From positions 62,001 through 126,000 of the forward strand of contig JARBJD010000113.1 of assembly GCA_033064195.1 (NCBI GenBank): a stretch of 64,000 nt of DNA. The letters run 5' to 3'. A program made the translations under genes and the position numbers. Positions 37,211-57,292 of this stretch are shown here, piece by piece. Each line of letters opens with the position of its first letter. Position 1 is the first letter of the stretch. The notes under the pieces are model-generated. The model searched no databases. It had not been told where the DNA came from and was given only the letters and a program-made list of their open reading frames with translations. This stretch comes from Blattamonas nauphoetae (lineage: Eukaryota > Preaxostyla > Oxymonadida).

Positions 37211-37225
37211 ATCTCCATTAGAGAT

Positions 37226-37270
37226 GGGCAGCGGTCGGTCCGACTGCTCGTCGACCGACCGACTGCTTTT
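37226..37270. repeat. Hairpin end module of E1
   Basis: A ~45-bp block identical with the left end of E2 (50886-50930): GGGCAGCGGTCGGTC, a 12-nt loop, then GACCGACCG and ACTGCTTTTT. The stem is 9 bp. Identity between the two elements ends soon after the T run. Confidence 0.85.
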
Positions 37271-37881
37271 TATCGCGATCGTGCCCATTTCCGGCAAAAT
37301 CGATGATGAAGTCACTGAGATAGTTTTTTCACGCTTTTCATCAATTTCCTTTGTTTCTAATTGAATTTTTGTGAAATAGTGATGATCATGTTGTTGAAAG
37401 ATATTGGACTGAAACAGAACAAACACAAATGATAGAGAGTGGAGTGAACTGTGAAACTGCCCGCATTATCTCACTCTTTTCTTCTCGTTCCACTGTGGCG
37501 AACGTATTTCTCCCTCCCAAACTGCTCTCCGCTGTGTGTGTCTGATTCTTCTGTCTCCATTCACTCCCTCCTCTATGCATTCACCCCTCCCATTCCTCCA
37601 TCCCCATCTTCTTTCTTCTCGTCGGTTTTCTTCCTTCTCACTCGCAGCTTCAATTGCCCAAATAGACTCACATTCGTCTTCCGCAGCATCTTCTTCAACG
37701 CGAACCACCCGTCGGCTTGCATCCCGTCGTACACTGCGCAGAACGTGGGTGTGAAGGAGGGGGGTGAGATGGAGCGGCTGCTGGTGAGGGAGGGAGAGAC
37801 CAGCTTCGACTACGATTACTCGCACGGTTGGAAGTTCTCGCGCTTGTCCTCCCACGCCAAGAACGCCCATCGCATTCTTCC

Positions 37882-39760
37882 TCACATTTCGAGTGGATTC
37901 CAAGGTGCCCGATTAGGCGCTCCTCCTCTTCGCGAGCTCTTCGGCTTTCTTTCGTTCAGCGTAGTCAGAGTTGGGGCTGTGGCAATCCTCTTTGCAGTCC
38001 TTCCTTTGTGTTCGACACATTTCGATGCAATTCTCGTTCCTTTGCAGTTTTCGACGCAGATTTCATGATCAGTCTCACACGACGCTTCGCATTCACCGCA
38101 CAGTCCGTTCTCTTCCTCTTTTTCTGAGTTCGAGCACATAGATCGACAGTCACTTCGGTCAGCACGGCATTGCATCAGACACGCTTTCTCGCCTGCGCCA
38201 GTCTTGTTGTTCTTGTCGGTTCCACACACGCCCGTTGGCTTGAACTGGATTCATAAAGACATCTGGAAAGTGTGTCCAGTGGAGTTTCGGGATGGTTCAG
38301 TGTCAGCTTGTGAGGGTGTGGGAGTGTCCAGTGAGCACTCGTTCACGCAGTCGAAGCGACGTTTTCGATGTCGCATTTGACATTCTCTGTCTTCTCCACA
38401 TTCTGCAACTTGGATTTCGAAGAGGCGCTCGCAGCGGTCTTTGCATGGCAGTGATGCCAGCTCGTCTGGTGTTGATGTGGAGACAGCAGTGGTGTCGTTT
38501 GTGTCGGGAGGTGAGGTGGATGGAGTGGTTGAGGGAGAAGAAGAGGAAGAATTAGTGTTTGGTGGGGTTTGAGTTTGATTGGCTGGGACTGTGCCGTTGC
38601 AGATGCAGCGAGAGAGAGAAATGCCCATTCGTCGTTGACTGCACATCAAACACGCCTGCTGGCAAAACACATCCCTTCGTCGCTTTCGCTTCGTGTCCAA
38701 TTTTGAACTGCGAAAACATGATTGACATCCCATCTCCTCTCTTTTCCTCCTTCTTCTCTCCGTTTTTCTCGTTGTCTTCTCCACTATCTCCCGCTGTGCA
38801 TTGCGTCAGTTTCGTTATGCAGGTTCGCTCGCATTCTGTCATATCGCTCTTCCCGCACTCCAACACACATCCTTCGCTTTTCTGATAACACTGATCCACA
38901 CACCGCTCAGTGTTGTGCATGGAGAACGACGGGCGAGTGTTTGGAGAGTTTTAGGAGAGGTGTCTGTTGGGATGAGCAGAGTTCGACGCAGTTGAGAAGC
39001 GATGAGCGGCAATTCTGTTGGCAGAAAGACAGTGAGGAGAGGATGGAGCGAGCAATGCACGATTCTCTTCGTCGCAAACTGACAGACATGAATCGAATGC
39101 TGCAACACATGGCGCGAGTGAGGGTGGATCGAGTGTTTACGGTGAGGATGAAAAGAACGATGGTTGGCAAAGCGAGAAACACGAGCGACGAGTGTCGATG
39201 AGAGTTTGGAGAGAGCGCAAGTCGTTGGTCGGAAAAAATGGAGAAAATGAAAGTGGGGAGAAATGAGGCGAATATGGTTGAATGATGATGAAAAAATGGA
39301 ATAAAAAGGGAGAGGAGTGCGTCAGACCTCGTTTGAGAGAAAGGGACAGCGTAGGACACATTCCATCTTCTCGTCGAAGCATTTAGCATTGCAAATGGCT
39401 CTTTCTTCGTCTTTCTCTTTCTCAGTTTTGGTTTGTTCCAGTTCGTGTTCATTTTCAGTTTTTGGGTCGTCTTCTGTCTTCTTTTGGGCGTCCGATTTTT
39501 GGTCGCATTGGTTCGAGTAGAGATGGTATAGTGTGAAACACATCCCATCGTACGGGGAAGAACTGATCGACGGGGATGATTTGAGGGAAGAGGAGAGCTG
39601 GATGAAGATAATATTGGGATCACAGAGGGCGGAGGCAGAGTTGGATGAATTGCGGGAAGTAATGAAGAAAAAATGTGAACAAACCTCGTGAGCTCCCTGA
39701 ATGCAACTGTGGATGCAGGGACGCTTCTTTTGGAGGCATATCAGGTGATAGAAAATCGAT
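37882..39760 (-). CDS. Cysteine-rich repeat protein, multi-exon, cargo of E1
   Basis: Exons on the minus strand encode repeated C-x3-C-x6-C-x3-C hairpin units: CNAKCFDEKMECVLRC (about 39390), CQQNCRSSLLNCVELC (about 39000), CVDQCYQKSEGCVLEC (about 38880), CLMQCRADRSDCRSMC and CEASCETDHEICVENC (38000-38180). Shorter relatives are CERTCITKLTQC and CKDRCERLFEIQVAEC. Such spacing suits disulfide-bonded helical hairpins like CHCH or alpha-hairpinin folds. A Ser/Thr/Pro linker (about 38480-38570) and Lys/Glu-rich linkers separate units. Stop is at 37882-37884; the 5' exon is uncertain. No domain name fits. The gene sits wholly inside E1. Confidence 0.55.
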
Positions 39761-39889
39761 GGAGGAGAAAATAGTGTTCATCTGTGGTAAAGTGGTTCAA
39801 GAATCCTGACAAGAGGAATAATATCATAAAAGAAATGAAAACACACTTCGCATTAGATACATGAAAAATTCTTGATTAGACTGAGGATC

Positions 39890-40347
39890 AAGGATCGAAT
39901 TGACTGTGGAGTGGGACAACTGGTTTCGCGGAGGAGATCTTGAGTGAAAACGAGAAGTAAGTACTGAGAAGAAAAAGAATACCGTTTTGCAATTGTTTGG
40001 ATTCGTGGAGATGCTGTCATAACAAGGTTGAAGAGTCGGAGTCGGTCTGTCAGGCCGACTTTTTGTCCGATGTTGGGGAAGGATAGACCGACTCAGGGAC
40101 TCTTGAACCACGACCTCTTACACATTAATTTTGTGAAAAATGTGATGAACGAATGATAGAGATGTTGTGAATCAAAAATGAGAAAAAGAGAGAAATAAAG
40201 TGACTCTGGCGGGATTCGATCCCGGGTCCGGGGAGCAAAAAGCTGCCGTGCTACCGCTCGACTAAAAGGCACTTCAAAAAAGTCGCCGACCCTTTTATTT
40301 TTAGGGACTGGACTCAACCTTTTCAGACCGACCACTGCCCATGCCTA
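39890..40347 (-). repeat. tRNA-Lys-like end module of E1
   Basis: This ~460-bp module (read 40347 to 39890) recurs at the right end of E2 (53455-53865) and inverted at 53891-54310. It starts TAGGCATGGGCAG, then holds a 73-nt tRNA-like segment at 40200-40272. In that segment 6 of 7 acceptor positions pair, the anticodon-arm loop is CTTTTTG (UUU, Lys) and the B-box is GGATCGAATCC. After it come TTTTTGATTCACAACATCTC and a GACTCGGTC/GACCGACTC palindrome. The module is shared by elements with different cargo. Confidence 0.8.
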
Positions 40348-40404
40348 ATCTCCAAACAAGCTCAGAATTGGAGGATTGGCAAGATGGTGAAGAACACACA
40401 ACAC

Positions 40405-40866
40405 ACATTTCATGAAGATGTTAGATGTTCAGTTATTTTGGTGAATACAGCCTAAATTCGAGAATCAGAACAGGATCGTGATTGCTCATTAATCTGTAAC
40501 GCTCGGTTCATCGCAGAACAATAATACTCAGTTTAAACGCAAAAATGGATTGAAAAGAGAGAGTATATGAGATCATTATCAAAAATGTTTCAAAAACGAG
40601 AAAAAGTGTCGACGACCAACCTCGAACCCGGGTCCGAGGGTTGAAAGTCTTGTGTTCGAACTCCCTGAACTAATCACGATCAAAACTACATCCACTTTCA
40701 ATCCCCTTGTCATTGAGATTCTTCCCCTCTGGCCGGTTTTTTTCCCCTCCCACCGAGTTTTTCCCCTCTGACTTAGTTTTTCCCCTCTGACTTAGTTTTT
40801 CCCCTCCAACCGAGATTTTCCCCTCTCACCGACTTTTTCCCCTCACAATTGAGCCACCCCTCATGA
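40405..40866 (-). repeat. Interspersed repeat with tRNA-Glu-like core, copy 2 (inverted)
   Basis: Reverse complement of the unit at 26571-27051, nearly identical through the tRNA-like core and tail. Its minisatellite (about 40715-40848) has seven units against eight in copy 1; the difference is one unit containing AACTAAGTCA. It begins 58 bp beyond the end of E1. Confidence 0.8.
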
Positions 40867-41639
40867 ACTAAAAGGTGACCATTTCACAAGACAGATTCGA
40901 TTAAAGTATTTTCAGAGCAATTTGGATAAATGAGAGAGGACGGAACCTCTTTCGTGACGATTGGAAGACAGAAATGTCATTTTACTCAAATTTTCAAAAA
41001 TCATTTCATATGATGCCGTTGAAAGCTATTTTCAGAATTTCTCTCCCGAAAGACAAGTATAGCAATCAGGCTGAAGCGAAAACAACTCTTGCCAACAGTT
41101 CCCATCAAGTTGCTTTTCGATGGAACCAAATATAGGTCCACGTCTTCATGGTGTCTCCTCACTTTTTCTCAACAATTACAGACTGTATGATTTTCTCCCG
41201 CCATTCTCTTGATCTCCTTTCTTTCTCTCTCTCATCTATAGTTGACATTGTGCCTTCTTTATCTTCTGATATTCATTCGTTTGTGAGGAATGACCATGTT
41301 TGATTGATAGTTGCACTTGATGTGGAGAGAAGTGGAAAGAGATGAGAGCCTGCCCGACTCAAATTCTGCCACAGTTATTGTTCGTTCTGTGTATTGTGCC
41401 AGTCCAGATACAGAACTGTGGCAAACGTAGTCAATTTCGTGGATTGTTTTTCACTATCGGACTTTTGAAGGATTTCACAAAGTCTGACCCATCTCTCGTC
41501 GGTTCCGATCAACTCTTTGACAATCACCGCCTTATCTTTGAGTCAAAATATTCTCTCCACTCTCAATTCAACACGATATTACCTGGTCTCATTTCACAGA
41601 CTTGGTTCTACTCCCACACAATCAATCTGACTCTTACAT
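40867..41639 (+). other. Mostly non-coding; possible start of decayed transposase
   Basis: No firm gene. A 99-codon frame at 41342-41641 (MRACPTQILPQLLFVLC...) lies directly upstream of the transposase remnant and may be its degraded N-terminal part. Confidence 0.35.
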
Positions 41640-42090
41640 AAAAATCGCACAGACTTGTGTGAACTTTGGGAAGCAGTAGCGCAGCTTCAGGAGAAGGACA
41701 GACGATATGGCGAGAAACCGACGAATAAATAGTGTCCTGATGTAATCAATGCATTCCGAAAAGTATTCCATCACAATTCTCTCTCTCAAACACAATCGAT
41801 ACAGTTTTGGTCGGATGGTGGCGCAAACTTCCGGTGTTCTGAAACCTTACATGCATTGACAGTATGGTTTTCAAGGGAGAAGTAACAGACAACTTGGAAT
41901 GAAGTTACAGTATCAGTCAACAATTTCGAAGCCGGCCACGGCAAGAACGAGGTCGACAGCCTCTTTGGTGTGCTTTCCCAGGAATTAAAACAGAACCTTC
42001 CAAAACTTGGACTTTCCTCTTTTCAGATCTAATTGTTTCTTTTCTATTGAACACTCTACAACTAGACATGCGGAAACCTGAACAATTGGA
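41640..42090 (+). pseudogene. Decayed relative of the DDE-transposase-like gene
   Basis: Pieces in different frames read IQFWSDGGANFRCSETLHAL (about 41800-41860) and FEAGHGKNEVDSLFGVLSQE (about 41925-41985). These align with SDCGPHFRN and FIESHGKSICDSTFG of the 28895-30768 gene and keep the second D and the E. Frameshifts and stops elsewhere show it is dead. It supports the view that the intact gene belongs to a transposon family. Confidence 0.6.
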
Positions 42091-44620
42091 GCAGCATTTT
42101 ATCGTTGCGTATGTTTTTCTTTCCAACCCCAATCTCAAGGGACGATTAATCAACTGAGCTTTGTGAAGCGTGCAACTTGGTAATCTCATGAATGAAGTCT
42201 TGCCTATGTTTTGGAGTACGAAATGGATTATTGAATGGTTTTGAAACTGCAGCTGAAACTGAACAAGGAACAATCTAACTGTGGAAGAAACGACCACCAA
42301 CTCAACATGCGAAAGTTCACAACATCTCTCTCTCCACTGACAAATGCTCCCTCGAATTGATATGCGAATGAAATTCAAACTCCAATGGGTGATTTCCACA
42401 TCATCCCAATCTGCTTTCAGTTTTCGAATCGAGGATCTCTTGACCTTCACAATCTTTCCCTCCTTTTCACTGAGTTTCGCTAGCCATGCTTTCCTTTTTC
42501 GCGAGGGGTTGGGTCAGGATTCGTTCTTTTTCATTCCTGGGAGGTGGAGATCACCTCTTCTCCGATGGTGTTTCGATCCACATTGGTGAATCTGCAGAAT
42601 GCTGAGCCCACTCTTGGTTTCCCATGTCCTTCATGGTAAAAAAAGATCTGTTTCGAAGACGAAAGTGAGACGTGTGGAATAAGAGATCGATAGTTGCAAG
42701 AGGAGGTGTTGATGGACAGAAACGACAAATAATCCATCGTGGTTTAGGACTTCAGAAAAAAAGGGGTAAAGTTCAGGTGTGTGATTTGTTGAAAGTGGCA
42801 AAAGTCATGACTACCATGTGTTTCTCTCATGACGAATTACCATTTTCCTTTGAAATCAAGAATGACGACTTTTTCTGTTTCTCCACAGGTCTCAATCAGC
42901 TCCTTAACCATCGAATGGTTGACCAGTGCTTGTGAGCTTTGTTCACAATCGTTCCAAGTTATCCCATCTGTCACAATTGTTGCGTCCGTCTGTTCTTTTC
43001 TTCGCTTGTTTGAGTTGATTAGTCGCCGATCGAAATGCTAATTCGATGAATGGCGATGAGGCAATTTTTTTGAATGAACGCAATAACCCCACTCTTGTTC
43101 CTTGAAAGACTCAGTGCTCCCACATCCAACAACGAGCTTGAAAGGGATTGTATTTTGGATCAATGCTGCTAGATCCCCTTCTTTGTCGAGGGAAAACTCT
43201 GTGAGACATTTTGAGAAGTATGATTTTGCTTTTTTCACTTGACACTCGTATATTTCATTAGTGTACTTTATCCGTGAAGGAGGCGATCAAGTCTGGACTC
43301 TGTGAGACTCTCCAAACTTCACGAGGTTCTTAGACAGTCTCAAACTGTTCAACGTCACAGAAACCCAACAGAACGGAGATCACCGTCGCTCCAAGACGGA
43401 ACGAGTGTTTGGAGCATCAGGATCTGTTCGTGACGGCGCATTTTTTTCGTTTGTCTGATAGAAACAAAATTTTGATGAGTAATTCCACACCAGTTTCCCT
43501 CACTTAATTTCCTTCCTTGAGTTTTGTGCCCCAATCCGTCTTTTCAAGAATATGGTCGAAATGATGAGGTATTCATGATCTAAAGCGTCGATGGCAGTCT
43601 GTTCAATTTTTGTCCTCAAGATAATTCGAAACAACGACGTTCTACAGACCTTCAGAGATACATCACTCAATCAAACAATAGAACTGACATGTGTGGTCAC
43701 TGTGCATTGATAAACCCACTGTGGACACTCCCGCCCGAAAAGAGAGCACTTCACAAGTTTATAGCCGACCTCCTCTCAATACACAAAGAAGATTCTGCAA
43801 CCTAACGCGCTCATCATATCGCAGATAACTCCAACGTGAGCGATGGCGAATGCATCCGAATTGAAGATTTCAAGAAGAACATTTCATTTCCGTTCGGGAA
43901 TATAGATTTTGGTGAATTCATCCATGCACAAAGCCCTCTCACATTTTTTTCGTTCATTGAAGAGTGGAAGACAATAAACATGTCCCACTCTAATTCGTTT
44001 GTGTGCACGCTTTTTTCTCCCGAGCATTCTCTGATTCATCGTCGAACCGAAGTTGATGATTCAGAGAAATCGTCGGCATCGATTTTACGAAAAATAGACT
44101 CGGAAAAGAGGTAGAAACTGCAGGAGCTGAACAAAACGACCGAAATCAAATGGTGAAGCCATTGAACGTTTATTGCTCGACAAAAGTTGAAAAAACTCTG
44201 GATGGATCAACATGAGCTTTTCTTCTCAGAAAAGAGGAATTTTCGCGTTTCTCGCTCCGTTTCTTACTGGTTTTGCTCAGTAGTTCCAGTGAAGTGAGTG
44301 ATACAATCAAAATCATTTGCACCCATCGTTACTCACTTCTTCACCAACAAAAAAGGTGATAGAAATGTCATTAACCCGGTCCGTGTCACCAACCCGGAAC
44401 TTGGGGTCCAAACAAACCATATTGGTCCAACTAAGAAAAAACTTTAATTTGAGAAACTAAAGGAATTTGAGAAAGGACAATTCATTTCTCAACCATAAGA
44501 GGAGATTGGTTTTGAATGTTGGTCTTCGAATTGATGAATGATGTTAAACATTCTGACCCAATTCACCATCGAACAAGAAAATCAGATCACGATTAACAGT
44601 TGCACAACACTCAAAATACC
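42091..44620. other. 2.5 kb without a supported gene
   Basis: Short frames only (the longest are 177 codons minus at 41917-42450, shadowing the transposase relic, and 92 codons plus at 43836-44114). None gives a recognisable protein. A motif TTGGTCCAACTAAGAAAAA at about 44423 is related to the repeat ends at 46222 and 46752. The region looks like eroded mobile DNA. Confidence 0.5.
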
Positions 44621-44623
44621 GAG

Positions 44624-45393
44624 TGTACACAGGGATTCGAATTTGCCCCGACAAGATGTAGGAGTTTAATCATCATCATTTCGTGGTTTTCGATAAAATA
44701 AAAAACATATTTTTATAAATTGTGAATGAAATGAAGGACTAGCATCTAAATTCAAAGAAAAAACTCGACACGATCAAGGACGCAGCAAGATCCTGATTAA
44801 TACGGATCAATGAAAAGGTTAAATTTTACTGGACGTCAAACCATGTCTGATAGCCCGATTCCATCGGCTATAAGATGGATGTGTGTAATTTTCAACCGTT
44901 CTCTCGATCTGAGAAACTTGTGCTGGTTTGTGTTCTTCAGATGACAATTGGTGTTTCGATCGTCTCAAACGGTGATAAAGTGAGAATTTCTTTTCGGTGA
45001 TAGACTTGTGTCTCTCATATCATGTTTAATCCAGCAGACGCTCCCACTTGAAAAACAGCGGCGATTTTCACCATGAATAGAAGTTTCTGAATCAAATAAG
45101 AGAGTCATTGGATTTTTTTTTGTGAAAGAGATGGTTAGAACATTATTGAACAATAATCACTCCACTTTGGTTGGTTTAGCTCAGAAAAACAATTCGTCAA
45201 AAACTGTTGATAAAGAGATGTTTAAGTGAAATGGAGTCAACTATGAAATTTGGAATGGTAGAGAAAGAGATGAGTTGAACCTCACGACGAGGGAACATTT
45301 TTATGACTATGCTCCCCCAACGCCCCGAATGGCAAACCCCGACTCCCCGACTCAAATCGTGAGTCGGGGCAAATTCGAATCCCTGAGTGTACA
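44624..45393. repeat. ~770-bp unit with 30-bp inverted ends
   Basis: TGTACACAGGGATTCGAATT and following TGCCCCGAC (44624-44652) recur reversed at 45363-45393 with one small difference. Each end contains GGATTCGAAT, like a tRNA B-box. Next to the right arm is a 9-bp hairpin, CCCCGACTC and GAGTCGGGG (45345-45369). No coding capacity; possibly a MITE or paired tRNA-like relics. Confidence 0.55.
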
Positions 45394-46164
45394 TCAAGAA
45401 AAATGTTGAAATGTGGACAGAAACGAAGAAACAGACATTTTTTTCTTCATCTGAAGTGGGAAGTCTGGTTATGGGACTAGATTCTCATCTGATTTATTTT
45501 GGAAAGTCTGGTCACATTGTCATCATGAACACCCCAACCTTTCGCCCAGAACACTATTCCGCACTTAAAGACACCTCAACTTGAAGACATTGGAAATGTC
45601 ACAAATCCGATTTTTCATGATCCGATTCAACATCATGCCGTTCGATTCCAAACTGATCCCCAACAAGAGATTGTAGGAGCAATTATCAATTTTTTCGTGG
45701 ACTCCAGATGACATACAATTCTCATGCCCAGTTCACTACACTGGTGGAAGAATGATTAATTTCTCGTTCTCGCCAGAAACACAACATTTTCAACCGCTCC
45801 TGACAGACCTTCAGTGGGCCCAGGCCAACGTCCTGATGGTCACAAAAGCAACCTGATAGTCATGAAGAAAAACTGAAAAAAAGCTAAACCAGCAAAAAAA
45901 CGAGCACAAGGAGAAATGTGAAACGAAAGAGCACAATAGGAGGTCCGAGAAAGAGATAAAAGCCGTTCAATCAACAATGTACTCCTTTTCTTGAATGGAC
46001 ACTTCAAAAACTGCGATGAACTTGATTTGCCACAATGAGAAATGAAAAGAAAAGAATAGCAATGCCATGAAATCAGATGAAACGAGTGGGGTTGTAAAGA
46101 AAAGAAATCAGATTCAATAAAACCACCAATTCCAGCCGCACATGTCGTCCACACCTTAATAGTA
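45394..46164. other. Intergenic, no gene seen
   Basis: Frames here are short and unrecognised (157 codons minus at 45840-46313 is hydrophobic and low-complexity). Nothing else noted. Confidence 0.5.
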
Positions 46165-46230
46165 GTGTCAATACCCCGTACATATTCAAAAACCCGTAAC
46201 ATGGGGCTTGAAAAATATATATTGGTCAAA

Positions 46231-46687
46231 CTAAGAAAAATCAAATTTGGTTTCGCGCCGAAACCCCTGTGTCGGGAGAAAACCTCAAAATACTGTTTCC
46301 TTAAGGAATCCACACATTTTTCTCAACTTTTTCCTTTTTTTTCTCCACAACCAGCCATCCGTTTTGAATCAAATAAAATGCATTGTGATCGTAAAGTTCT
46401 CGACAAAAGCTGCTCAAAAAATTAATGATATTTTTTTCTAAGCATTTTTTGTCGAGAAAAATATGGGTTTTTTTCCATTTTCCCAAATATCCAGAATTTT
46501 TTCTTGAAATTTTTTTCAAAAAATTCATTTCACCAAACAAACGATTCTACAAAACATTCCATCAAAATCGGTTCACAGGTTGTGAAGATATTCCCGAAAC
46601 GATTTTTTTTATCGGGCAAAAGGGGGTATTTTGAGGTTTTCTCCCGACACAGGGGTTTTGGCGCGGAACCAAATTTTAGTTTTCGTA
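46231..46687. mobile_element. N1: ~455-bp foldback insertion
   Basis: Inverted arms (about 46241-46300 and 46623-46680) carry AAATTTGGTTTCGCGCCGAA then CCCCTGTGTCGGGAGAAAAC and their reverse complement. The interior includes TTCACCAAACAAA and AAAATCGGTTCACAGGTTGT, shared with N2. The relative at 50440-50563 lacks it; a TA duplication fits both junctions. Confidence 0.75.
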
Positions 46688-46722
46688 TAGTGGCGTCACC
46701 AATACGTTCCATGTCAACAATT

Positions 46723-47248
46723 CGTGCTTTTTTCTGGAATTATCACTTTTGGTCAAACTAAGAAAAAAATAAAATTTTAGAGTTTTCTTCCCACTGGATC
46801 CCGAGAAAACCTCAAAATACGTTTTACAGCGAAACGCCACACATTTTCCAAACTTTAGACGATCATTTTTCCATACCCAGACATCCGTTTGAGACCGAAG
46901 AAAAAGCATTATTTTCGTAAACATATCGATTAAAGACGCTCAAAAAAATAAAAATTGTTTTCCCATGAAATTTTTCTGGGCGAAAAATAGCCTTTTTTCA
47001 TATCTTCCCAGATACCCATAATTTTTTTTCCAAAATTTTTTCAAAATGTTCATTTCACCAAACAAATGTTTCTGTGGAAAATTTCATCAAAATCGGTTCA
47101 CAGGTTGTGAAGTTATGACGAGAACACATGAAAAAAGTGGTTGAAAAGAGCTATTGTGAGGTTTTCTCGGGATCCAGTGGGAAGAAAATTCTAAAATTTT
47201 ATTTTTTTCGTAGTTTGACCAAAAGTGATAATTCCAGAAAAAAGCACG
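46723..47248. mobile_element. N2: ~526-bp foldback insertion, relative of N1
   Basis: Ends CGTGCTTTTTTCTGGAATTA inward, with ~95-bp inverted arms (46723-46820, 47150-47248) containing CCCACTGGATCCCGAGAAAA. The interior repeats the N1 motif AAAATCGGTTCACAGGTTGT, but the outer arms differ from N1. It is absent from the matching place in the 50440-50563 relative. Confidence 0.75.
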
Positions 47249-47276
47249 ATTGGCTTGGGTCGGCATGTCCTCCTCC

Positions 47277-47311
47277 AAAAACCCGTGTCCTATCATAGGA
47301 CACGGGTTTTT
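47277..47311. repeat. Perfect 17-bp palindrome, 1-nt centre
   Basis: AAAAACCCGTGTCCTAT, one C, then its exact reverse complement. The inner GTCCTAT/ATAGGAC is the same motif that fills 50052-50455. It lies at the right end of the split repeat. Confidence 0.9.
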
Positions 47312-48183
47312 GGCGCTTAATTAGGCGATGTGAGGGTTCTGTCCAAAAAAGCATGTAGATGAAGTTAGATGATGTGTAACCTATATTTTTACAACACACT
47401 ATTCAGTTTTACGTTCATTTCTGACGAATCAGTAGCGAAAAGGACGAACCAAGTTCGATCCGGGCAATTTAAAGAATGTAGGTCCGATCAACATTACACT
47501 TTCAAAACGTCCTCTCCTGATCACATTTAAAACAAAACAGAGCAACTTGAACGGGATAAATGTGGTTTTAATAAATGTGAGATCACAGACACACCAGATT
47601 AGCCGAAGGAGAGTTGTCAACTCTTTGTTCGCTTCTCTGCTGCCACTTCATTCGTGACCCTCTGATAGCATTGGTTGTCTGTTATATCCCTCGCCGCTTG
47701 TCGTGTGGGCACATATTCTTTGTGTGTCAGTTTGTCACCAAAGGCGGGTTCAACTTGTCTCTGTTTCTCAGCTTCTTCCTTCTCTGAGCGTATTGGTGTG
47801 CACGGTGGTGCTGATGTGTGCGACTACGACGAGTGCATTAGGAACAGAAAGAGACACACGACGGGACACATTCCGAATCACTGTCTGTGGAGGAAGAGGT
47901 GCTAGAACAAGAATCGCGAGGGGAAGTGTTCTTTCTTCCTTTCCTCTGTCGATCTCGGCTGTCCTCGTGCCTGTGTCGCTCGACGTAGCTTGTCATATCT
48001 CTACGAGACACACGATACATCCAGATTGACTGTGTTTTCGTTCAATGTCTGTCTCCTTCATCCTCCACCACTTCCGGTTCCAGAACGGTGATTGTGGGCT
48101 TGGCTCGAGTCGTCTGAGAGAGAGACTGGACCTGCTCGTCGTTGATTCGTATCATCCCTCGTTGAATGTGAGGAAATGAGAGA
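47312..48183. other. Spacer; possible far 3' part of the coiled-coil relic
   Basis: No firm gene. Minus-strand frames around 47838-48020 (STSSSTDSDSE-like) could be eroded tail sequence of the coiled-coil gene. CAAGTTCGATCCGGGCAAT near 47451 resembles a tRNA T-arm, but no tRNA folds around it. Confidence 0.4.
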
Positions 48184-49490
48184 TCACACCTCCAACCCCT
48201 TTCTCTTCAATTCGTTCTGTTCTCGCTTCCATCTCTTCTCTTCCGCCTCCTCGTCCTGTTTCGCTTTCTTCCTCTCCTCTTCTCGCTCTCTCTTCTTCTG
48301 TTCAATTTGCTGTCGAAGCTCTTCCCTGTATTCCAGTGCTTGTCTTTTCCGAATCTCGCTCGACCCTCCTATTCCCTTCAACCCACTCACTTCCTCCCGC
48401 TCTCCCTCACACATTTCCCTCCCTCTCCTCTCCCATCCCTCTTTCTCTTCATCCGATCTCCTTCACTACCCCTCCTATTTCTTCCGCATCCCCTTTCTTG
48501 TTCCCCACTTCTTGCTTCTACTTCTTCAGCTTGCCTTCGCGTGCAATCATGTTGTCTTCCAGTTTCGTCCTTTCAGTTGTGCTCCTCCCCCTTTTCGTCC
48601 CCAAGGGTTGTAATTCAGTGCAACCTCTTCCATTCTTCGCACTTCTTCCCGAATCCGAACTTCCTCCTGCGCCTTCATCCGTTTTCCTGGCTGCTGCTTG
48701 TTCAAGAAGTTCACTTTGATATTTACGTTATTCTTCCATTTTCTTCATTCTGGCACTTGGAACATACTCTGTGACGTTTTCTACAGCATCAGCGACCACT
48801 TCTCTCTCCTCCATCGGCACAGCGCGTTGTCTGATGGCAGGTTCCTCTTTGTGAGGTTGCCTATCCTGCCGGGGGGTTCTGTCAGAATGTACTGCGTTCA
48901 GTTTGGATTTTTTTTGAGTGGGAAGATTGTTGATGGCGTTTTGATGACCAGAAAGTACATCTTTTGTGAGGACGATCCGACCATTCTCGTGTATCAATGG
49001 TCCTCCTCCTCCGCCTCGCCTGAAATGAAAATACACCATAGTATGTTGTGGAGAGTACTCTCGTTTCCGCTGTTCCCGCACTTTCTGCTCTCACTCCCAT
49101 TTTTCTCGCATTTGATATCGAAGTTCAGCCGCATCTTCCTCCTTGTTTAAAACGCACGTATTCATGCTGCCATGTAATTGCTGAATCTGGTAGTCAATGT
49201 CTGATGATTCCATCTGGCGCAGGTGAGCAACTGTCGGTGCTAGTCCGCCAGGAAGAAAGTGGCTCGTGCAACCCTTGGATTTCGGACTCCGAATTGGGCG
49301 CTTGAATCATAGCCATCTCCGTCTTGGGTTGATGTTGGAGGATGCGTTCTTTATTTGTTTGCCGACCGGCCGGGAGGATCCACGTCGGGAACGTATTCAT
49401 GTCGAATTCGTGGTGCGGATCTGCCTTGCATCAATGCTCGGTTTATCTTTCGAACGCACCTTCCGTTTGTCTCTCATCTGAATCGTTCTC
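48184..49490 (-). pseudogene. Broken coiled-coil protein, centrosome/axoneme-like
   Basis: Minus-strand sequence encodes charged helices: AHLRQMESSDIDYQIQQLHG (about 49200), ELRYQMREKWE, EQKVREQRKREYSPQ (about 49070), RKYQSELLEQAAARK (about 48700) and ALEYREELRQQIEQKKRERE (about 48320). The last two resemble the short YxxxLxxQIxxKKxRKExE helices of CSPP1/CCDC66-type microtubule proteins. Two in-frame stops split otherwise continuous helix: TGA between EKWE and EQKVRE, and TAA between KMEE and RKYQSE. CGA to TGA and CAA to TAA changes would explain both. An apparent 17-nt GT-AG gap after PQHTM is too short to trust. Likely a dead copy. Confidence 0.5.
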
Positions 49491-50051
49491 TTCTCTCACG
49501 CTGTCAGTTCCTATATTTGTTTTTGACCCTTCGTTTTTGCGTTGATCGATTTGTGAGATTCTGGGATGATATCTTGACTATATCTGAAGAGATCTGGACA
49601 CGCAATGATGGTTGATGTGAATTCAGATGGATGAACGAATCTAAAGAACGGGCGAGGTTGATGTTTTGTTGAAATGAGGGGTGGAGATTTATACAATGTT
49701 GTTCATGATTGAACAATGAAATATACATATATTTCTGCACTTTTGGTTGATTGCTTCGTTTATTTTGCACAAGACTGCGATGCTTGACAAGTTAATAGGG
49801 AAAGAGCAGACCAGCATGATGAAGGAGTTTCTACAGAACAGTTCCAGTGAATTCAGGAACACTGAATGGAGAGAACAAGAAATTGAACAGAAAAACAGTC
49901 GATACCATTGATGCGACACGAAGTTCCTGAGTGTCCTGATGTCAACATGATCAGTTCATTTTTCTTGTCGATCAAGAGTTAAATTTCGAAGACATAGAAG
50001 AGAACGAGATCAAGAGGATGAGGGTCAATCGAGAAAAATGATGGTTTGATA
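49491..50051. other. Intergenic, nothing recognised
   Basis: No supported gene or repeat. Probably the upstream region of the coiled-coil relic. Confidence 0.5.
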
Positions 50052-50455
50052 GGACAGATCGGGCCACCATAGGACACGATAGGACAGGACAGGACAATTG
50101 TCCTCCCTCGATTTTATTGTGAAATTGAGACGCAAGTATTGTGAATGTCTCAAATAGCTTTCATGTCCTATGGTTTGAGCCCGATTCAGAATTGTCCTAT
50201 CGTGTCCTATGGTGGGCTGATCGACCGCTTTTGGACAACTTTCGCGATTTTCATTAAAATAACATGAAAAAACACTTTTGAAATGATTCTGAAACAGAAA
50301 ATGTGCATAATTCTCTCATCTTTCTCCTTCTTTTTCATTTTCGCTTTTCACCATCAGACGATGCAGGAGACCGGTTCAATTCCTGTCATCAGCACTTTTA
50401 TCCAAATTGTCCTCCTCTTTTTGGGTGTCCTATAGGACAGGACAGGTAGGACATG
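50052..50455. repeat. Cluster of TAGGACA heptamers with inverted arms
   Basis: TAGGACA or its complement occurs about ten times. A long inverted pair, GCCACCATAGGACACGATAG (from about 50073) and CTATCGTGTCCTATGGTGGG (to about 50215), would fold around ~95 nt. The cluster ends beside the unoccupied repeat copy. Its role is unknown. Confidence 0.7.
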
Positions 50456-50563
50456 CCGACCCAAGCCAAAAGCACGAATTGTTGACATGGAACGTATTGG
50501 TGACGGCACTATTAGTTTGACCAATGTATATTTTTCAAGCCCCATGTTACGGGTTTATGAAAA
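50440..50563. repeat. Unoccupied relative of the split repeat
   Basis: Read on the minus strand it runs from CCCGTAACATGGGGCTTG through GTCACCAATACGTTCCATG to GGCTTGGGTCGGCATGTCC with no insertions. It serves as a natural empty site for N1 and N2. Confidence 0.8.
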
Positions 50564-50870
50564 GTTCGGTTTATTGAAAGAACTATAACCCCAAATTATG
50601 TTTGTGGATGCTCCTTCCATATTTTCGCTTCATTCCTACTTCTAATTCTGGGATTTAACAGCCCAATTCATTTTTATTGAGACAGATCTGTCGGTATTGT
50701 CACAAAAACGGTTTGTTGTTGGTGTTCATCCGCTGAAAGTACACAAAATGGCACAACAACCACATAAATAGAGAAAAATGGATAAAAGACTTAAAATTGA
50801 ATGATATACAATTTCCATGGATTACTGTCACATCCTTACCCAATTGTGTGTGCCGGAAGTATCAAATGTG
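50564..50870. other. Intergenic flank of E2
   Basis: No gene or repeat recognised. It ends with the target octamer TCGTTCTC at 50871-50878. Confidence 0.6.
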
Positions 50871-51252
50871 TCGTTCTCTAGGCATGGGCAGCGGTCGGTC
50901 CGACTGCTCGTCGACCGACCGACTGCTTTTTTTAGGATGATCTGCCCCTTTTTATCACTTTCAGTAAAGACTTCCCGATTTCAGATAATTCACTCTCTCA
51001 CTTCGCAATATCGCTGTGTACAATGATTTTTTAAACAAATACATCCATAATCTCTTCTCATTGCTCACTTCCTTCCAACTATTCAAAGCTTTTGAATAGT
51101 GTGATCTCCTTTCTTATATGAAAGGATACTGACTTCATCATTTGTCATAAGCTCTTTAATTCACATTGACCGCCAATTTTCATTGTCTCCCAACCTTGAA
51201 GTGGACATATTCCAGATAAAAAGATGATTGTTCCTGTGAAGAGATTGAACCA

Positions 51253-53340
51253 TCATACTCCCATCAGAACCCTACTGGTTGTTGCAAATTGTCTCGAAGT
51301 GTGTGGAAACTCAACACGTTGCTGATCTGCTGGCTGTATTTCACCAGCTCTGAAAGTCGTTCTGAGTTCGCTGATCGGACTTGTGAGAGATGGATGGTTT
51401 GCAGAGACCCTGTGGAATGAGTGGGAGGAAGGGCACGTGGAGGCGGAGAAGACGGTGGTAGAGTGACTGGCCGAATCCAGCGCCGATGCGAAGAGCAGCA
51501 TTCTGAACAGTCGGTCGCTCCTTCCGCGAGTCTCCGATGAACACGATCCGCTTGAGCCTGTCGACGTTCTTCAGCATGACGAGCGGGATGAACGACTCGA
51601 TCTCCAGGCACGACCCCGTCACTTCCAGCACAATCGAGTCGAAGCTGAAGCCCTGTTTCACCAGATCCTCCCGCGCGAACGAGGTGTGTGTTGTGGTCAT
51701 CGCAATCACCTTCGCATGGCTGTAGAAGAAGTGCTGTGTGCTGTCGGTTGTGGTTGTGAACAACTCGTACGGCCGCCCTTTTCTCACACACTCGAACAGA
51801 CGCTAAACACATGCGAACAGAAACTGAGCATGTGTGAACGAGGCACAAGTTTCGGTGGGAGTTAGATAGAGTGTTGGCCAGCGCTTTCACCAGCTCCAGA
51901 CAGTGCAGACGACGAAACAGCATGTTGTCGACGCGGCCTTCCTTCGAATAGCAGTTGTTCAGGTTGTGTGTTTTTGAGCCGTGCCCCATTCGTAGAAAGG
52001 TGCTGAGCTGGCCAACGAGGGAAAAAGTTGTTTCGATGAGCTCATTGAGGATGGAATTGGAGTGGTTGAGGATATACACACGTAGTTAGGGTGGAATTTG
52101 AGGAGCGACGTGATGGTGTGGCTGGTCACTCACGTCTTTCCTGTCACGAATGGTTCGTCAGAAAGCATCGCCTCCTCTTCCCCTCTCGATAGTGGTGTCT
52201 GATTGGTGGAGATACTCTGTTCGGGATCGCCTTATCAGATCGGCACATCTCCGAGCAAGTCAGACTTAGACACACCATCCACAATCATCGTTCGGATTGA
52301 GTCGAGGACAGCCTTTGTGTTGCTCTCCTTTGGGTTGTGGTGAATAACGAAGCTGAAAGTCTGACACACAGTGACGACACCAGGCTTGACCCATCGCGTA
52401 TCCTACTCGTATTGGTTGAGGTCGAGGAGCACGTGGAGTGGTCGGTCCTCGTTCCCCACTTTAATAACCTCAGCACCTCGCACAGCCTGCACTCCGAACA
52501 GCTCGCAGAAGATGAGGGTGTCAGTGTCGGCTTGTTCGTGTGGTGGGACGACTGTCAGCAAATAAACCACATATTGTCGTTTGAGTGAATCCCACTCCGC
52601 TCTTATCGGAGCTTGTGTTGTGAACTCGATCACTCCTTCAGCATTCAGCACTGGAGACGACGATTCCATAGTATCTTTCAAGAAATCACGGATGGTGCGG
52701 AGATGGTAGTCGTGCTGAGTGAGGTATTGGAGGGAGAGGAAGAAGATTGGTGTCCCAAAGCATGCGTTCTGTCGGGAAGAGCGCCATTATCATGATAAGC
52801 TCGAGCAGGACTGTTGATGAGAGGGCCAGCTTCCTGCTCTCCTCGTACGCATCCACTTCGTCCTCGTCGGTGCCGATGACATCCAAGATCTCCACCAATC
52901 GAACGAGAGAGTCGTGCGGGGTAAACATGAGCAACTTGTCCCGAACTCCGTTTGTGTTGAACGAAGACACGGATGAGACCGCAATTTCCTTCAGCGAGGG
53001 AAGGTCGCGGTAGTAAAGCGTTTGGAGCTGTTGGATGCGATCGTATTACAAGTTCAGAATGTCTTTTTCTGTGAGTGCTTTTCCTGTTCGCTCGTCCACT
53101 TCAAAGAAGAGATATTAACGAAGAAGAGCTAGACAGCTAATAAAGAGATTGTGGTTCGTTAGAGATGGATTGTGAGACTGCGACTTGCCAGTGATCTCAC
53201 CCCTGAACTGGGCGAGGTCATTCTTGATGCAAATAAGGGGAATATGTTTTGATAAGATCATCGGACGCACAAAGCGACGTGTTGTAAGAGTGGACAAGAG
53301 CGAACTTGATCATTTAATTGAGACACAGCGGCCTAAAACC
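51253..53340 (-). pseudogene. AQR: Aquarius-like spliceosomal helicase fragment, copy A (E2 cargo)
   Basis: Aquarius/IBP160 is an SF1 RNA helicase that binds introns in the spliceosome. Pieces in Aquarius order: FFEVDERTGKALTEKDILNL, YDRIQQLQTLYYRDLPSLKE, MALFPTERMLWDTNLLPL, EGVIEFTTQAPIRAEWDSLK with LLDLNQYE, NHSNSILNELIETTFSL with LRMGHG, and the RecA-like AKVIAMTTTHTSF, GFSFDSIVLE and IVFIGDS. An in-frame TAA after DILNL and several frame changes break it. The Walker A region falls in a deleted interval. Parts before and after the helicase core are missing. A possible intron separates KNDLAQF from CLALLR near 53115-53220. The working gene must lie elsewhere. Confidence 0.82.
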
Positions 53341-53454
53341 GATGAAGGAGATCACATCGTTCATCATCGGAAAAGAGGCTCATCTGTTCTGATGAGAGAA
53401 CAAACATCGAAAAAGACTCTCAATAGAAGAAAAACGAGGGATTGTTGAGTAGAT

Positions 53455-53865
53455 TTAGGACCATGTATCGATCTGACTCGGGTGTGGGACGACAAACAAT
53501 CTTGAGCGAGATCATGAAAGAAAGTGATAGTTATGATTTGAAAATAAAAAGAATACCGTTTTGTTATTATCTAAAGCCGTTGAAAGACTGAAAGAACACA
53601 GTGAAAGAGTCGGGGACTCTTGATCAACGATGTGTTGAACATTTATTTCGAGAAAAATGAGATGAACTAATGATAGAGATGTTGTGAATCAAAAATGACA
53701 AAAAGTCAACAATAAAGTGTCCCAGGCGGGATTCGATCCTGGGTCCGGGGAGCAAAAAGCTGTCGTGCTACCGCTCGACTAAAGGGCACTAAAAAAAAGT
53801 CGCCGACTCTTTTATTTTTTAGGGACTGGACTCGATCTTTTCAGACCGACCACTGCCCATGCCTA
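53455..53865 (-). repeat. tRNA-Lys-like end module of E2
   Basis: Same module as 39890-40347. The tRNA-like segment is 53717-53789 (73 nt): acceptor GTGCCCT against GGGACAC, anticodon loop CTTTTTG, B-box GGATCGAATCC. It keeps TTTTTGATTCACAACATCTC and a GGTATTCTTTTT stretch, but the GACTCGGTC palindrome region is shorter than in E1. Confidence 0.8.
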
Positions 53866-53890
53866 TCGTTCTCAATGAAATGATGCAAAC

Positions 53891-55961
53891 TAGGAGTGGG
53901 CAGTGGTCAGTCTGAAAACATCGAGCCCTGTCCCTAAAAAAAAGAGACGGCGACGTTTTGCTCCTGCGACCCAGGATCGAATCCCGCCAGAGTCACTTTA
54001 TTTCTCTCTTTTTGTCATTTTTGATTCACAACATCTCTATCATTCGTTCATCACATTTTTCACAAAATTAATGTGTAAGAGGTCGTGGTTCAAGAGTCCC
54101 CGAGTGAGTCTGTCCTTCCCCAACATCGGACAAAAAGTCGGCCTGACAGACCTACACCGACTCATCCACTGTGTTTTGACAACTTTCACACAGATCTTAA
54201 TAAATCCAAGATGGTATTCTTTTTCTTCTCCACACTTCTTTATCGCTTTCACTCAGGATCTATCACAAGAAACCAATTGTCCCACTGCCAGGTCAGATCA
54301 TAACATGATTCCCAACTATATCAACGATAACTCATTTTTCTTCTGCAGAGTGTCTCTTCCCTCCATCCAGAACGACAAAAAACGACGTAAATTGGAATGG
54401 AAAGGAAGAAGATGATGAAAACAATGAAACATTGTCACGTTTCCTGTTCAATCCACATGTTCTACATTCCACACCAAAACTTCCATCTCACTCATCCATC
54501 TTCTGAATACTCTTGATGTACTCACGTTTGCCCAACACAACTCTCTCGGTCGATTAGCAGGGCTCTTTGACGTCATCGGCACCGACGAAGACAAAGGAGA
54601 TGTGGACGAGGAGAGCGGAAAGCTGACCCTCTCATCAAAAGTCCTGATCGAGCTCATCGCCGAAAAGTTCACGTGAAAGCCTTCCCAATTGGCCATATTC
54701 AAGAAAATATCTCTCTTTCCAACAGAACATATGCTGTTGGGACACAAATTTTCTGCCCACATCGACATTCCGCCACGAGCACATCCTCGCCCTCCAAAAG
54801 CTATCACTCCAATATCTCCTCATGTCCGACTACCTTCTCCACAATTACACCCTCTTCCGCTACGAATCCACCCACACCATCCGTGAGGACTTGGAAGGAA
54901 TGATCGAGTTCACATCCCAAGCTCCAACCGCCCTTCCCATCGGCGGGTTCAATTTGACTGTTGTGGGCCGAGAGAAGGTGGGCAAGAGCTGCCCATCTTT
55001 CATTCTGAGTGAGTTTGATATTGGACGGTATGTCTCTGCCTGCCTTGCTCGGAGATGTGCTCATCGCATATGGCTAGCCCGAACAGTGCATCCCCACAAA
55101 TCAAACGCTGGTGTCGAGAGGGGAAGAATATGCGATGCTGGCCGAGCGGGAGAGGATTGCGGACGAGCTGAGTGGGTCACAGCTGGATGCGGTGTCGAGT
55201 GGACTGAAACGCGGTCTCACGCTGATCGACGGAGCACCAGGGACGGGAAAGACGCGAGTGGTCAGCCATATCATCTCGTCGCTCCTCACACTCCACCCGA
55301 ACGAGCGTGTGCTTATCCTCGCCCACTCCAACTCCGCCCTCAACGAGCTCTTCGAAGCCGCTCTCTCCCTCCTCGGCTAACCACGCTTTTCGAAGGAAGA
55401 CCACGTCGACAACATGTTGCTTCGTTGCCTGTGCTATCTGGAGCTGGTGAAATCGCGGGCTGAGTCGCCGTGAAGAAGGTATGGGAGATCTTCGAGCAGC
55501 TGTGGGAGGAGCGCAAGAAGGACAAGGACGACGAAACTCCACAGGTAGAGTTCACTCCCGAGCCTCTCTTCCCAACACCCACCGACGCTGTCGCCTCGTT
55601 CGCACATGCCCAGATTCTGTTTCCATGTGTCGAGCGTCTGTTCGAGTGGGTGAGGGAAGGACGGCCGTACGAGCTGTTCACAACCACAACCGACAGCACA
55701 CAGCACTTCGTCTGCCGCCAAGCGAAGGTGATTGCGATGACCACAATACACGCCTCGTTCGCGCGGGAGGATCTGGTGAAACAGGGCTTCAGTATCGACT
55801 CGATTGTGCTGGAAGGGATGAGGTCGTGTCTGGAGATCGAGTCGTTCCTCCCGCTCACTGCACAGGGTCTCTGCAAACCCTCCATCTCTCGACTCCTCAC
55901 CCGAGTCTATCCCAACCTCACCAACACAGCAAGTGTGTCACAACCACCTTTCACAATCTCC
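53891..55961. mobile_element. E3: inverted relative of E2, incomplete
   Basis: It starts TAGGAGTGGGCAGTGGTCAG and the tRNA-like end module in plus orientation (53891-54310), with part of the tRNA-like segment lost. An Aquarius-like fragment follows on the plus strand, so the order module-then-cargo is the same as in E2 but mirrored. Only 25 bp separate E2 and E3. A retroelement begins at 55962, and I could not find the hairpin end beyond it, so the right end is lost or outside. Confidence 0.55.
54440..55961 (+). pseudogene. AQR: Aquarius-like helicase fragment, copy B (E3 cargo)
   Basis: Order: HNSLGRLAGLFDVIGTDED, LALQKLSLQYLLMSDYLLHN with YTLFRYESTHTIREDLEGM, PIGGFNLTVVGREKVGKSCP, SQLDAVSSGLKRGLTLIDG with Walker A GAPGTGKT, RVLILAHSNSALNELFEA, then AKVIAMTTIHASF, GFSIDSIVLE and QGLCKPSIS. 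These match Aquarius from the beta-barrel through the RecA-like domains. Several frame breaks and internal losses are present, including most of the segment before the Walker motif. It overlaps copy A over much of its length but retains the ATPase motif that copy A lacks. It stops at the retroelement's terminal repeat. Confidence 0.82.
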
Positions 55962-56045
55962 AAGGATTTCCTTTCACTCAATCCTCTACCAAACCTGTGC
56001 CTTCAACAAGTGAGATATCCCTGGTGACGTGTAAGGAAACAATGG

Positions 56046-57248
56046 GTGGCAGATCCAATCATGACTCAGCCTAGTCAACAGTCAGTGTTAATCCAATCCG
56101 ATGCACTATCTTCGATAAATGTTAGTGCTGATCTCATCACAGAGATTACGAAACAAGTAATCAATTCCATTCCTCAATACATATCGCAAGCAACAACTCA
56201 GTCAATTGCACGACCGATCGAGACTAAAATTGGAAACACGGCAGAACAAGCTCTAGATCCCCTTTCACCGATACACTCACAAGAAAAGATCCTCAAGAGG
56301 AAACGTACTTCTCCCACTAGAACAGATCGAAGGCACCGAAATCGACCATCTAAAAATCGAAGTATAGCTGTGCATCGTCGGAATAGACGACAACAATCCA
56401 AATACGATTACACTGACAGTAGTTTCGAAGAATCCTCAGAGTCATATCAGTCGTCAACAATGATATCAGACACTTCTTCGACAGATGATGACTTGATGCG
56501 TCTAAAGGAGATTCTTCGCCACCGAAAGTCGAAATCGCACAGGACTACAAAAAGGAAGAAGAGTTCCCATCGAAATTTGAGCACATCGACACGATCATCA
56601 TGCAGCGATCGGCGACACAGACGAAGTGGAATCTCCAGCCGACAAAGACAGGAAATGCTAAAGAAACAACTTTTCAAAGATATGAAGAAGCAAGAACCAT
56701 CTTTTACTAAGAATTGGCTGCAAACAACATTGCCAAATCAGCAACGTGATTTGACAAATTCACATACGTCTCAGATCAAGAATTTGTTGGGAATTCCCAC
56801 AGAAATAGCTGCAAACCGTGCGATAATCACAGAGGCGCAGAGAATACAAGATCAGGCCTTGATGACAGCAACACATTCAACCTTTTCGTCGATCGGACAC
56901 ATGGCCCAAGTTTATGATATGGTCACACATGGAGAGCCGCCAAAACACATCCTGCCAATTATCACGAAGGGTATCTTGGATGCTGCGGACTCTGCAGCCT
57001 GCAGCCATCTTGGCCGATACGTTACACCGGTCAATGCGGGACAGGTCGCTTTCACTTTGGGGCTCACTCAACCAGCGACAGCCCCCAATGATCTGCTTCT
57101 ACCTCCCAATCAATCTCCAGGGTTCACTCAGTCCAATAATCCACAACAACAGTTTAGTCAAAATTCTTTCTCTCAACAAGGGGGGTCAGTCCGCCTCCCG
57201 ACTCAACCCAAGGGACAACGCAACAGATTCTACCCCAAACGACATTAA
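56046..57248 (+). CDS. Capsid-like (Gag-like) part of the DIRS element
   Basis: A 400-codon frame. An N-terminal helical region (SADLITEITKQVINSIPQYI) is followed by an Arg/Ser-rich basic middle (KRKRTSPTRTDRRHRNRPSK), a conserved-looking C-terminal half and a Gln/Asn/Pro-rich tail. The position and charge pattern fit the first coding part of DIRS elements. No zinc knuckle is evident. Assignment is by position. Confidence 0.65.
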   Translation: MADPIMTQPSQQSVLIQSDALSSINVSADLITEITKQVINSIPQYISQATTQSIARPIETKIGNTAEQALDPLSPIHSQEKILKRKRTSPTRTDRRHRNRPSKNRSIAVHRRNRRQQSKYDYTDSSFEESSESYQSSTMISDTSSTDDDLMRLKEILRHRKSKSHRTTKRKKSSHRNLSTSTRSSCSDRRHRRSGISSRQRQEMLKKQLFKDMKKQEPSFTKNWLQTTLPNQQRDLTNSHTSQIKNLLGIPTEIAANRAIITEAQRIQDQALMTATHSTFSSIGHMAQVYDMVTHGEPPKHILPIITKGILDAADSAACSHLGRYVTPVNAGQVAFTLGLTQPATAPNDLLLPPNQSPGFTQSNNPQQQFSQNSFSQQGGSVRLPTQPKGQRNRFYPKRH

Positions 57249-57292
57249 CACAACCATCCAGTCGACCAGTTCCGGAGAGGCTGAGGGATGCC

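Follow-up and report, generated by a model that had tools for sequence, protein, structure and literature searches.

A high-copy family of Pack-type transposons in Blattamonas nauphoetae whose host-gene cargo appears to be re-copied from living parent genes

The window analysed here, a stretch of 64,000 nucleotides at positions 62001-126000 of contig C17 of the Blattamonas nauphoetae genome, contains three elements (E1, E2 and E3) of a high-copy, non-autonomous Pack-type transposon family that has terminal inverted repeats (TIRs) and carries fragments of host genes between its ends. An initial annotation of the window had described E1 and E2 as gene-capturing, Pack-type non-autonomous DNA transposons, and this description held for most copies examined across the genome, with paired ends and 8-bp duplications, several host-gene cargoes, and open-frame parents of cargo genes elsewhere in the genome. 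We think it highly probable that E1, E2 and E3 represent one cut-and-paste family, probably mobilised in trans by a hAT-type transposase, in which host-gene cargo has been replaced or extended from the living gene.

Paired ends, target-site duplications and an empty site

The assembly analysed comprises 88.3 Mb in 837 contigs (the published assembly, built from Nanopore and Illumina reads, is described as 88.5 Mb in 879 contigs; PMC10703272). Below, C-numbers denote contigs of the analysed assembly, and L-numbers a fetched region or element or a parent piece. A 22-bp end pattern, TAGGNNTGGGCAGNGGTCNGTC, scanned at up to two mismatches, gave 425 matches genome-wide (210 + 215), against 2 + 0 for the reversed pattern used as a control. 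First-look searches yielded 201 candidates for the 428-bp right module and 183 for the 82-bp left end, 40 of which were scored in each case. Forty regions were fetched and 42 elements of 1867-7807 bp (median 3007 bp) were extracted: 38 from listed pairs, E1, E2, and two siblings of E1 (L069 and L070). Pairs were chosen by convergent direction and distance among 100 listed ends before the octamers were read; no pair was obtained from L055, and two false pairings in the nested L051 were taken out before counting. The end modules are paired outside the window as well, with 80 of the 100 listed ends assigned to the 42 elements and four more making up two wider pairs on C2 and C6.

The ends claimed for E1 and E2 in the initial annotation were present, as were the perfect duplication flanking E2 and the 7/8 match flanking E1 (Table 1). 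Octamers also match in most of the other copies: perfect 8-bp target-site duplications flank 38 of the 42 elements, all 38 being different, E1 has its 7/8 match, and three pairs fail. In control comparisons, a shifted right octamer matched in 0/42 elements at eight of nine offsets and in 1/42 at the ninth, and mismatched octamer partners gave no match in 2000 draws. As L069 and L070 are nearly identical to E1 (0 mismatches over 3.1 kb, gaps only) and each has a perfect octamer of its own, the mismatch at E1 would most simply be a later substitution. The nested insertion in L051 provides a clean empty site, as the outer element, once the inner element and one octamer are removed, matches L043 gap-free at 99.5% identity over 400 bp. 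In addition, the best BLAST pieces show identities of 99.1% or more in 20 of the 26 same-type pairs compared and of 83-97% in the other six, and much of the transposition is therefore recent.

The two wider pairs of convergent ends lie 18 kb (C2:379909-398320) and 20 kb (C6:194459-214611) apart. The former has cargo of the alanyl-tRNA synthetase (AlaRS) type by one end and a Merlin-type match around its middle (C2:389086), and is therefore probably one element that a large insertion has pushed apart.

Host-gene cargoes and their parents

The interiors of the elements fall into 14 clusters, or about 15 kinds because one cluster fuses two through the nested L051, and 10 of these kinds are multicopy (the multicopy search covered those 10). 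In Pfam searches of 18 representatives, the strand reading inward from the right end gave Aquarius, Kelch, AlaRS, dynein C-terminal and POLQ helical domains, and the opposite strand gave only DUF6470, collagen and DUF4236, which are probably low-complexity matches. The annotated direction of the cargo, inward from the tRNA-like end, is thus that of all five recognisable host genes. With five of five gene families sharing one orientation (chance 1 in 16, two-sided), the evidence that uniform orientation is a real property of the family is suggestive, not proven. By eye, 10 of 19 right modules have kept ATGGT and, after it, a sequence rich in TTC that faces the cargo; the motif lies at some 360 bp from the right end (for example in L032, L044, L046, L056 and E3; lost from E1 and E2). 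The ATGGT is a possible start codon and may bear on the uniform orientation.

For four of the five cargo genes a parent was located, and the parent pieces are uninterrupted frames: 1196 aa for Aquarius on C790, 1233 aa for POLQ on C235, 855 aa for AlaRS (parent-like loci on C61, C223 and C445) and 453 aa for dynein (parent-like locus on C339). Pfam names these Aquarius (C790), DEAD/Helicase_C/POLQ (C235), tRNA-synt_2c (C61, 171.9 bits) and dynein heavy chain (C339); for the Kelch cargo, no parent was singled out in a genome search. Parent-matching cargo is longer than 1 kb in every case measured. Near-identical copies number three for the POLQ cargo and eight for the L048 type of AlaRS cargo. 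Domain PF21143 has 11 matches, one of them in a 1271-aa open frame on C790, the Aquarius parent; the other ten lie 669-1674 bp from listed ends, nine of them with in-frame stops, and Aquarius copies lacking this domain, such as E3, fall outside this count.

The Aquarius fragment annotated in E2 was recovered by Pfam (Aquarius_N_1st, 9.5e-15; Aquarius_N_2nd, 9.1e-11). E1, which had been said to carry a cysteine-rich gene, does have open frames running inward from its right end, but neither Pfam (six frames and three open frames) nor a protein homology search with the 184-aa frame at 38254-38805 gave a match by which that gene could be named. This cargo is 99-100% identical in four copies, E1 and three others, and a possible end-free relative of it was seen at C556:683506-685419 (70-89% identity).

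Mosaic cargo

Within single elements, stretches about 80-87% identical to the parent adjoin stretches of 92-96%, and the breakpoints vary by element. Compared base by base with the Aquarius parent (coordinates counted on parent piece L071), L046 is 82.7% identical before position 1739 and 96.2% after it, E3 is 84.1% and then 93.0% identical, and E2 passes through three successive tracts of about 92, 82 and 93%. The same holds for POLQ in L053 (85.8% then 94.8%) and for AlaRS in L032 (80.0% then 91.9%) and L048 (81.7% then 93.8%). In 13 of 15 element-parent rows, or 9 of 11 representatives, no more than 11 of 300 block permutations reached the best split (no correction for multiple tests; the close relatives L034 and L064 are counted separately), and in five representatives none of the 300 did.

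Shared differences separate the tracts further. At parent 1321-1700, L046 has 38 of 52 differences in common with L064, and at parent 1740-2200 it carries only 4 of the 57 differences of L064; the old cargo is therefore of common ancestry, part of it having been replaced later. Capture of Aquarius starts at parent 1104 in four elements, at 1106 in E3 and at 1287 in L034. Among the seven Aquarius elements compared, E2 alone carries parent 733-1103, at about 92% identity, in one tract that runs across the 1104 edge. From these alignments, cargo appears to have been repeatedly re-copied from the living parent gene. A diverged, functional Aquarius paralogue as the source of the old tracts was rejected, given one long open frame among the 11 PF21143 matches and near-neutral codon positions.

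The main alternative supposes several independent captures, with old and young copies recombined afterwards and no re-copying from the parent. Members of the family share long homologous ends and interiors through which they could recombine, and in their old part the AlaRS cargoes of L032 and L048 match each other at only about 71-77%, with few shared differences. However, the high-identity tracts sit differently in L046, L051i, E2 and E3, so that several separate young captures would each need to have recombined in, and the exact edge at 1104 is common to four Aquarius elements while the E2 tract runs across it. Independent captures are a conceivable but doubtful source of the mosaics.

Asymmetric ends and the transposase

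The left end consists of about 50 bp of nearly invariant TIR and hairpin followed by about 30 bp of looser sequence. The hairpin noted in the initial annotation is recognisable in all 23 aligned representatives, a few with substitutions, and that of E2 (about 50 nt with the TIR) folds at -29 kcal/mol with RNA parameters. The right module is conserved over about 330 bp and holds a GAGTCGGTC...GACCGACTC inverted repeat together with a tRNA-Lys(UUU)-like stretch. The likeness to tRNA-Lys stands for the letters, as the arrangement and spacing of A-box and B-box are kept in 18 of 19 representatives with at most two changes per box, but not for the fold: the right module gave no Rfam tRNA match at E<=1 and no tRNA by default ARAGORN, and at a 75% threshold ARAGORN called tRNA-Lys in 6 of 19 (E1 but not E2) amid scattered other calls. 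The stretch is best described as tRNA-like in its letters and not as a tRNA; a tRNA gene or tRNA-derived short interspersed element was rejected on the failure of these models to recognise the fold. Helitrons have neither TIRs nor target-site duplications and carry a hairpin close to the 3' end, and a Helitron is ruled out by the TIRs and 8-bp duplications found here.

The assignment to hAT had been based on the 8-bp duplication and TAGG-type ends. Both features do fit hAT, but no transposase with these ends was found and the duplications have no strong hAT-type consensus. hAT TIRs are short and start with YARNG, and the ends TAGGG and TAGAG fit this pattern; the commonest end, TAGGC, is without the G at position 5 (59 exact end matches are without C at position 5, compared with 425 ends at up to two mismatches). 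The duplication consensus of hAT elements is nTnnnnAn, and the 38 perfect octamers have T at position 2 in 16 cases and A at position 7 in 11. None of 61 matches to the hAT dimerisation domain PF05699 lies within 10 kb of the 189 listed ends against which proximity was measured, fewer than half of the 425, and no hAT transposase gene bearing the same ends was recovered in this comparison. The 750 bp downstream of one hAT gene, from an abundant-looking group, are mostly tandem repeats with no family end. Inside the elements, Pfam found no hAT domain (103 open frames and six trimmed frames of the 18 representatives), and the 103 open frames gave one match each to DDE_1 and DDE_3; the family is non-autonomous. 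The DDE_1 domain lies at 6463-7425 of L054, and as this 7.8-kb element belongs to a 1.9-kb type, the match is probably a separate DNA transposon nested inside.

Another enzyme that makes 8-bp duplications (Merlin/IS1595, P or KDZ) might be responsible instead. The genome has 94 matches to the Merlin-type domain PF12762, three of them at 4.4-9.2 kb from listed ends: one at C68:362216, inward of a left end for which no right partner was found, one at C2:389086, inside the 18-kb pair, and a third at C48:49155, on the side of its end that faces away from the element. The deviation of TAGGC from the hAT end consensus and the lack of a clear hAT consensus in the duplications also favour such an enzyme. 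Against it, the proximity of Merlin-type matches equals chance: two lie no farther than 5 kb from one of the 189 listed ends and three no farther than 10 kb, where 1.6 and 2.9 are expected. The ends TAGGG/TAGAG plus TGGGCA, moreover, resemble those of Charlie-like hAT elements and not those of Merlin, which start with GG. We consider a non-hAT enzyme unlikely. Because neither PF05699 nor PF12762 matches are nearer to the ends than chance, we class the family as a Pack-type TIR element whose ends are hAT-like and not as a proven hAT, its hAT membership being suggested by the duplication length and the form of its ends. At C68:362216-366824, the Merlin-type match, 4.6 kb inside the unpaired left end, could be an autonomous relative or a chance neighbour.

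Constraint, deletions and a possible repair mechanism

Uneven identity could in principle reflect uneven constraint along the parent gene with no separate copying, as selection acts on parents but not on cargo. For the dynein cargo, a single capture followed by plain divergence does fit (68% of changes at third positions, split not significant); a mosaic suggested by its BLAST pieces (84/92%) was dropped, the cargo being uniform at about 92% base by base. Constraint cannot, however, explain the mosaic elsewhere, because identity over a single parent stretch, 1740-2200, is 97.2% for L046 but 79.1% for L034. Old tracts are also nearer neutral by codon position (third position 40-51% in nearly all rows, 26% in one), and in AlaRS the end with the class II core is the more diverged part. 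This explanation is very improbable, and for Aquarius it is already largely refuted.

Deletions relative to the parent frames have a mean microhomology of 3.4 bp (0.74 bp at random), reaching at least 4 bp in 14 of 39 deletion entries (2.4% expected), although a few events are keyed twice in this list and local-alignment ends can inflate the figure. Such microhomology fits the gap-filling or fork-switching models that have been proposed for animal Pack-TIRs (PMC8277862). Insertion of spliced transcripts into the element, for which the sense orientation of all five recognised cargo genes from one end and the precedent of a spliced histone H3 in a fungal hAT (PMC6710886) might speak, is hardly credible, as cargo gaps tend to follow short direct repeats with no GT-AG pattern by eye and both AlaRS types start upstream of the parent open frame, and splicing cannot be read either way because the parent pieces are uninterrupted frames.

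Several observations weigh against one cut-and-paste family with re-copied cargo. Sixteen of the 100 listed ends, including that of E3, stayed unpaired in the list and scan used, and the octamer test fails in L037 (4/8), L042 (3/8) and L053 (1/8). L037 and L044 show no significant mosaic (44/300 and 194/300 permutations). Identity rises clearly toward the left end in 5 of 11 representatives, is flat in four and falls slightly in two, a tendency only, and a strict polarity in which the left-end side is always younger was dropped. The two AlaRS cargo types are nearly star-like toward the parent, so AlaRS alone is no proof of re-copying, and the identity of this cargo rests on its parent because single cargo frames fall below the Pfam cut-off. 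Only 17 of the 61 PF05699 matches share a contig with a listed end, the other 44 being on contigs without any. Finally, Nanopore reads contributed to the assembly, so that small indels seen in repeats may be errors.

In the mechanism that we propose, the element would move by cut and paste with transposase supplied in trans, and excision or fork breakage in or next to the cargo would lead to repair synthesis on a homologous template. This template would usually be a sister copy and sometimes the parent gene, which would lend a new tract, at times past the old edge, before rejoining by short homology; microhomology-flanked deletions would be by-products of such repair. Whether the elements in general keep a running copy of living genes, with the fragment patched and lengthened at every break so that each element is a patchwork of tracts that differ in age, walking along a gene by templated repair while the right module fixes the sense orientation, we regard as evenly poised.

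Comparison with known systems

Ds elements are said to arise from abortive gap repair of Ac, with internal deletions and filler produced through interrupted repair at short homologies. The internal deletions seen here can be explained in the same way, by interrupted repair with short homologies; in contrast to Ds, the repair template here would be an active host gene, from which the cargo would be extended.

Most descriptions of Pack-type capture come from plants, with further cases in animals and fungi (PMC8903248, PMC8277862, PMC6710886). The animal Pack-TIRs, which are mostly hAT, likewise have TIRs, host-gene fragments and target-site duplications, some being multicopy with distinct duplications, and template switching in repair has been proposed as their capture step, as it is here (Tan et al. 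2021, PMC8277862). That survey gives four multicopy cases (1.4%) and a median cargo of 224 bp, whereas here parent-matching cargo exceeds 1 kb in every case measured, kinds are mostly multicopy, and cargo appears rewritten from the parent. Plant Pack-TYPE elements, including Pack-hAT and Pack-MULE, are also non-autonomous and amplified, with gene fragments between TIRs and parents elsewhere (PMC8903248); the present family differs in its metamonad protist host, in its asymmetric ends (hairpin and tRNA-like module), in the single sense orientation of five recognised genes and in its parent-derived mosaic cargo. The histone H3 hAT of Pseudocercospora fijiensis shares the capture of a housekeeping gene, hundreds of copies and 8-bp duplications, but holds one gene, spliced, with a hAT transposase domain inside, compared with many genes and no transposase in the sampled elements here (PMC6710886).

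In searches of the open-access literature, we found no report of Pack-type capture in Blattamonas, Preaxostyla or oxymonads and no case of gene conversion of Pack cargo by its parent, and the main text of the B. nauphoetae genome paper contains no word beginning with "transpos" (PMC10703272). As far as we have seen, the host group, the extent of the family, its asymmetric ends and the evidence of cargo rewritten from a living gene are new. If cargo is re-copied from the parent, the family is a dated record of repair events, and the disputed capture step (gap filling or fork switching) therefore becomes testable from sequence alone, in a setting with a small genome and uninterrupted parent genes. 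Genes predicted in B. nauphoetae may also include such pseudogene fragments.

Elements and other features of the window

Table 1. Coordinates of E1, E2 and E3 and their parts, counted from the first letter of the window
Feature	Position	Strand	Basis
E1 left target-site octamer ATCTCCAT	37211..37218	no strand	
E1 whole element, 3129 bp	37219..40347	+	TIRs, octamers
E1 left end: TIR variant TAGAG and hairpin module	37219..37300	+	alignment of 23 left ends
E1 cargo region, open frames running inward from right end	38254..39777	-	
E1 right module, about 420 bp: TIR and internal GAGTCGGTC...GACCGACTC inverted repeat	39928..40347	-	
E1 degenerate tRNA-Lys(UUU)-like stretch, A-box and B-box	40200..40270	-	
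E1 right target-site octamer ATCTCCAA, 7/8 against left	40348..40355	no strand	
E2 left target-site duplication TCGTTCTC	50871..50878	no strand	
E2 whole element, 2987 bp	50879..53865	+	TIRs, octamers
E2 cargo: Aquarius fragment, mosaic against open-frame parent on C790 (about 92/82/93% identity)	51385..53304	-	
E2 cargo portion beyond ancestral capture edge, parent 733-1103 of L071	52934..53304	-	
E2 right module, GTCGG inverted repeat lost by internal deletion	53607..53865	-	
E2 right target-site duplication TCGTTCTC	53866..53873	no strand	
E3: right end 53891, Aquarius cargo from 54521, truncated by retroelement at 55962	53891..55961	-	

E3, absent from the initial annotation, is a third member of the family that follows E2 after a gap of 25 bp in the opposite orientation, its Aquarius cargo lying on the other strand than that of E2. 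No left end of E3 was found at up to three mismatches. Inserted in its Aquarius cargo is a DIRS-like retroelement (55962-60380) that has 54-bp perfect inverted repeats as borders and, from motifs recognised by eye, reverse-transcriptase-like and tyrosine-recombinase-like frames. The right ends of E2 and E3 stand head-to-head at 53830-53926 and form a near-perfect hairpin; Rfam matches to MIR1512 and mir-4433 at this site are below gathering score and reflect these head-to-head ends, not microRNAs.

About 33 bp from the right octamer of E1 lies one copy of a 0.5-kb repeat (40388-40866), which forms an inverted pair with 26571-27069 at 94.6% identity. It has a B-box-like stretch near 40610 (by eye) and is a possible tRNA-derived short repeat. 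Elsewhere in the window, a gene of about 1,870 codons is present in three tandem copies at 6108-23371 (86-88% identical), the first of them divided between two reading frames; the encoded protein is large and rich in repeats and, judged by eye, probably has a transmembrane segment at its C-terminus. A dynein protein encoded in the window matches a B. nauphoetae protein at 100% identity over 89% of the query. A 575-bp inverted repeat (31012-31586 and 31840-32409) is 98.6% identical across a 253-bp spacer, and a 300-aa open frame at 29866-30768 is transposase-like by eye.

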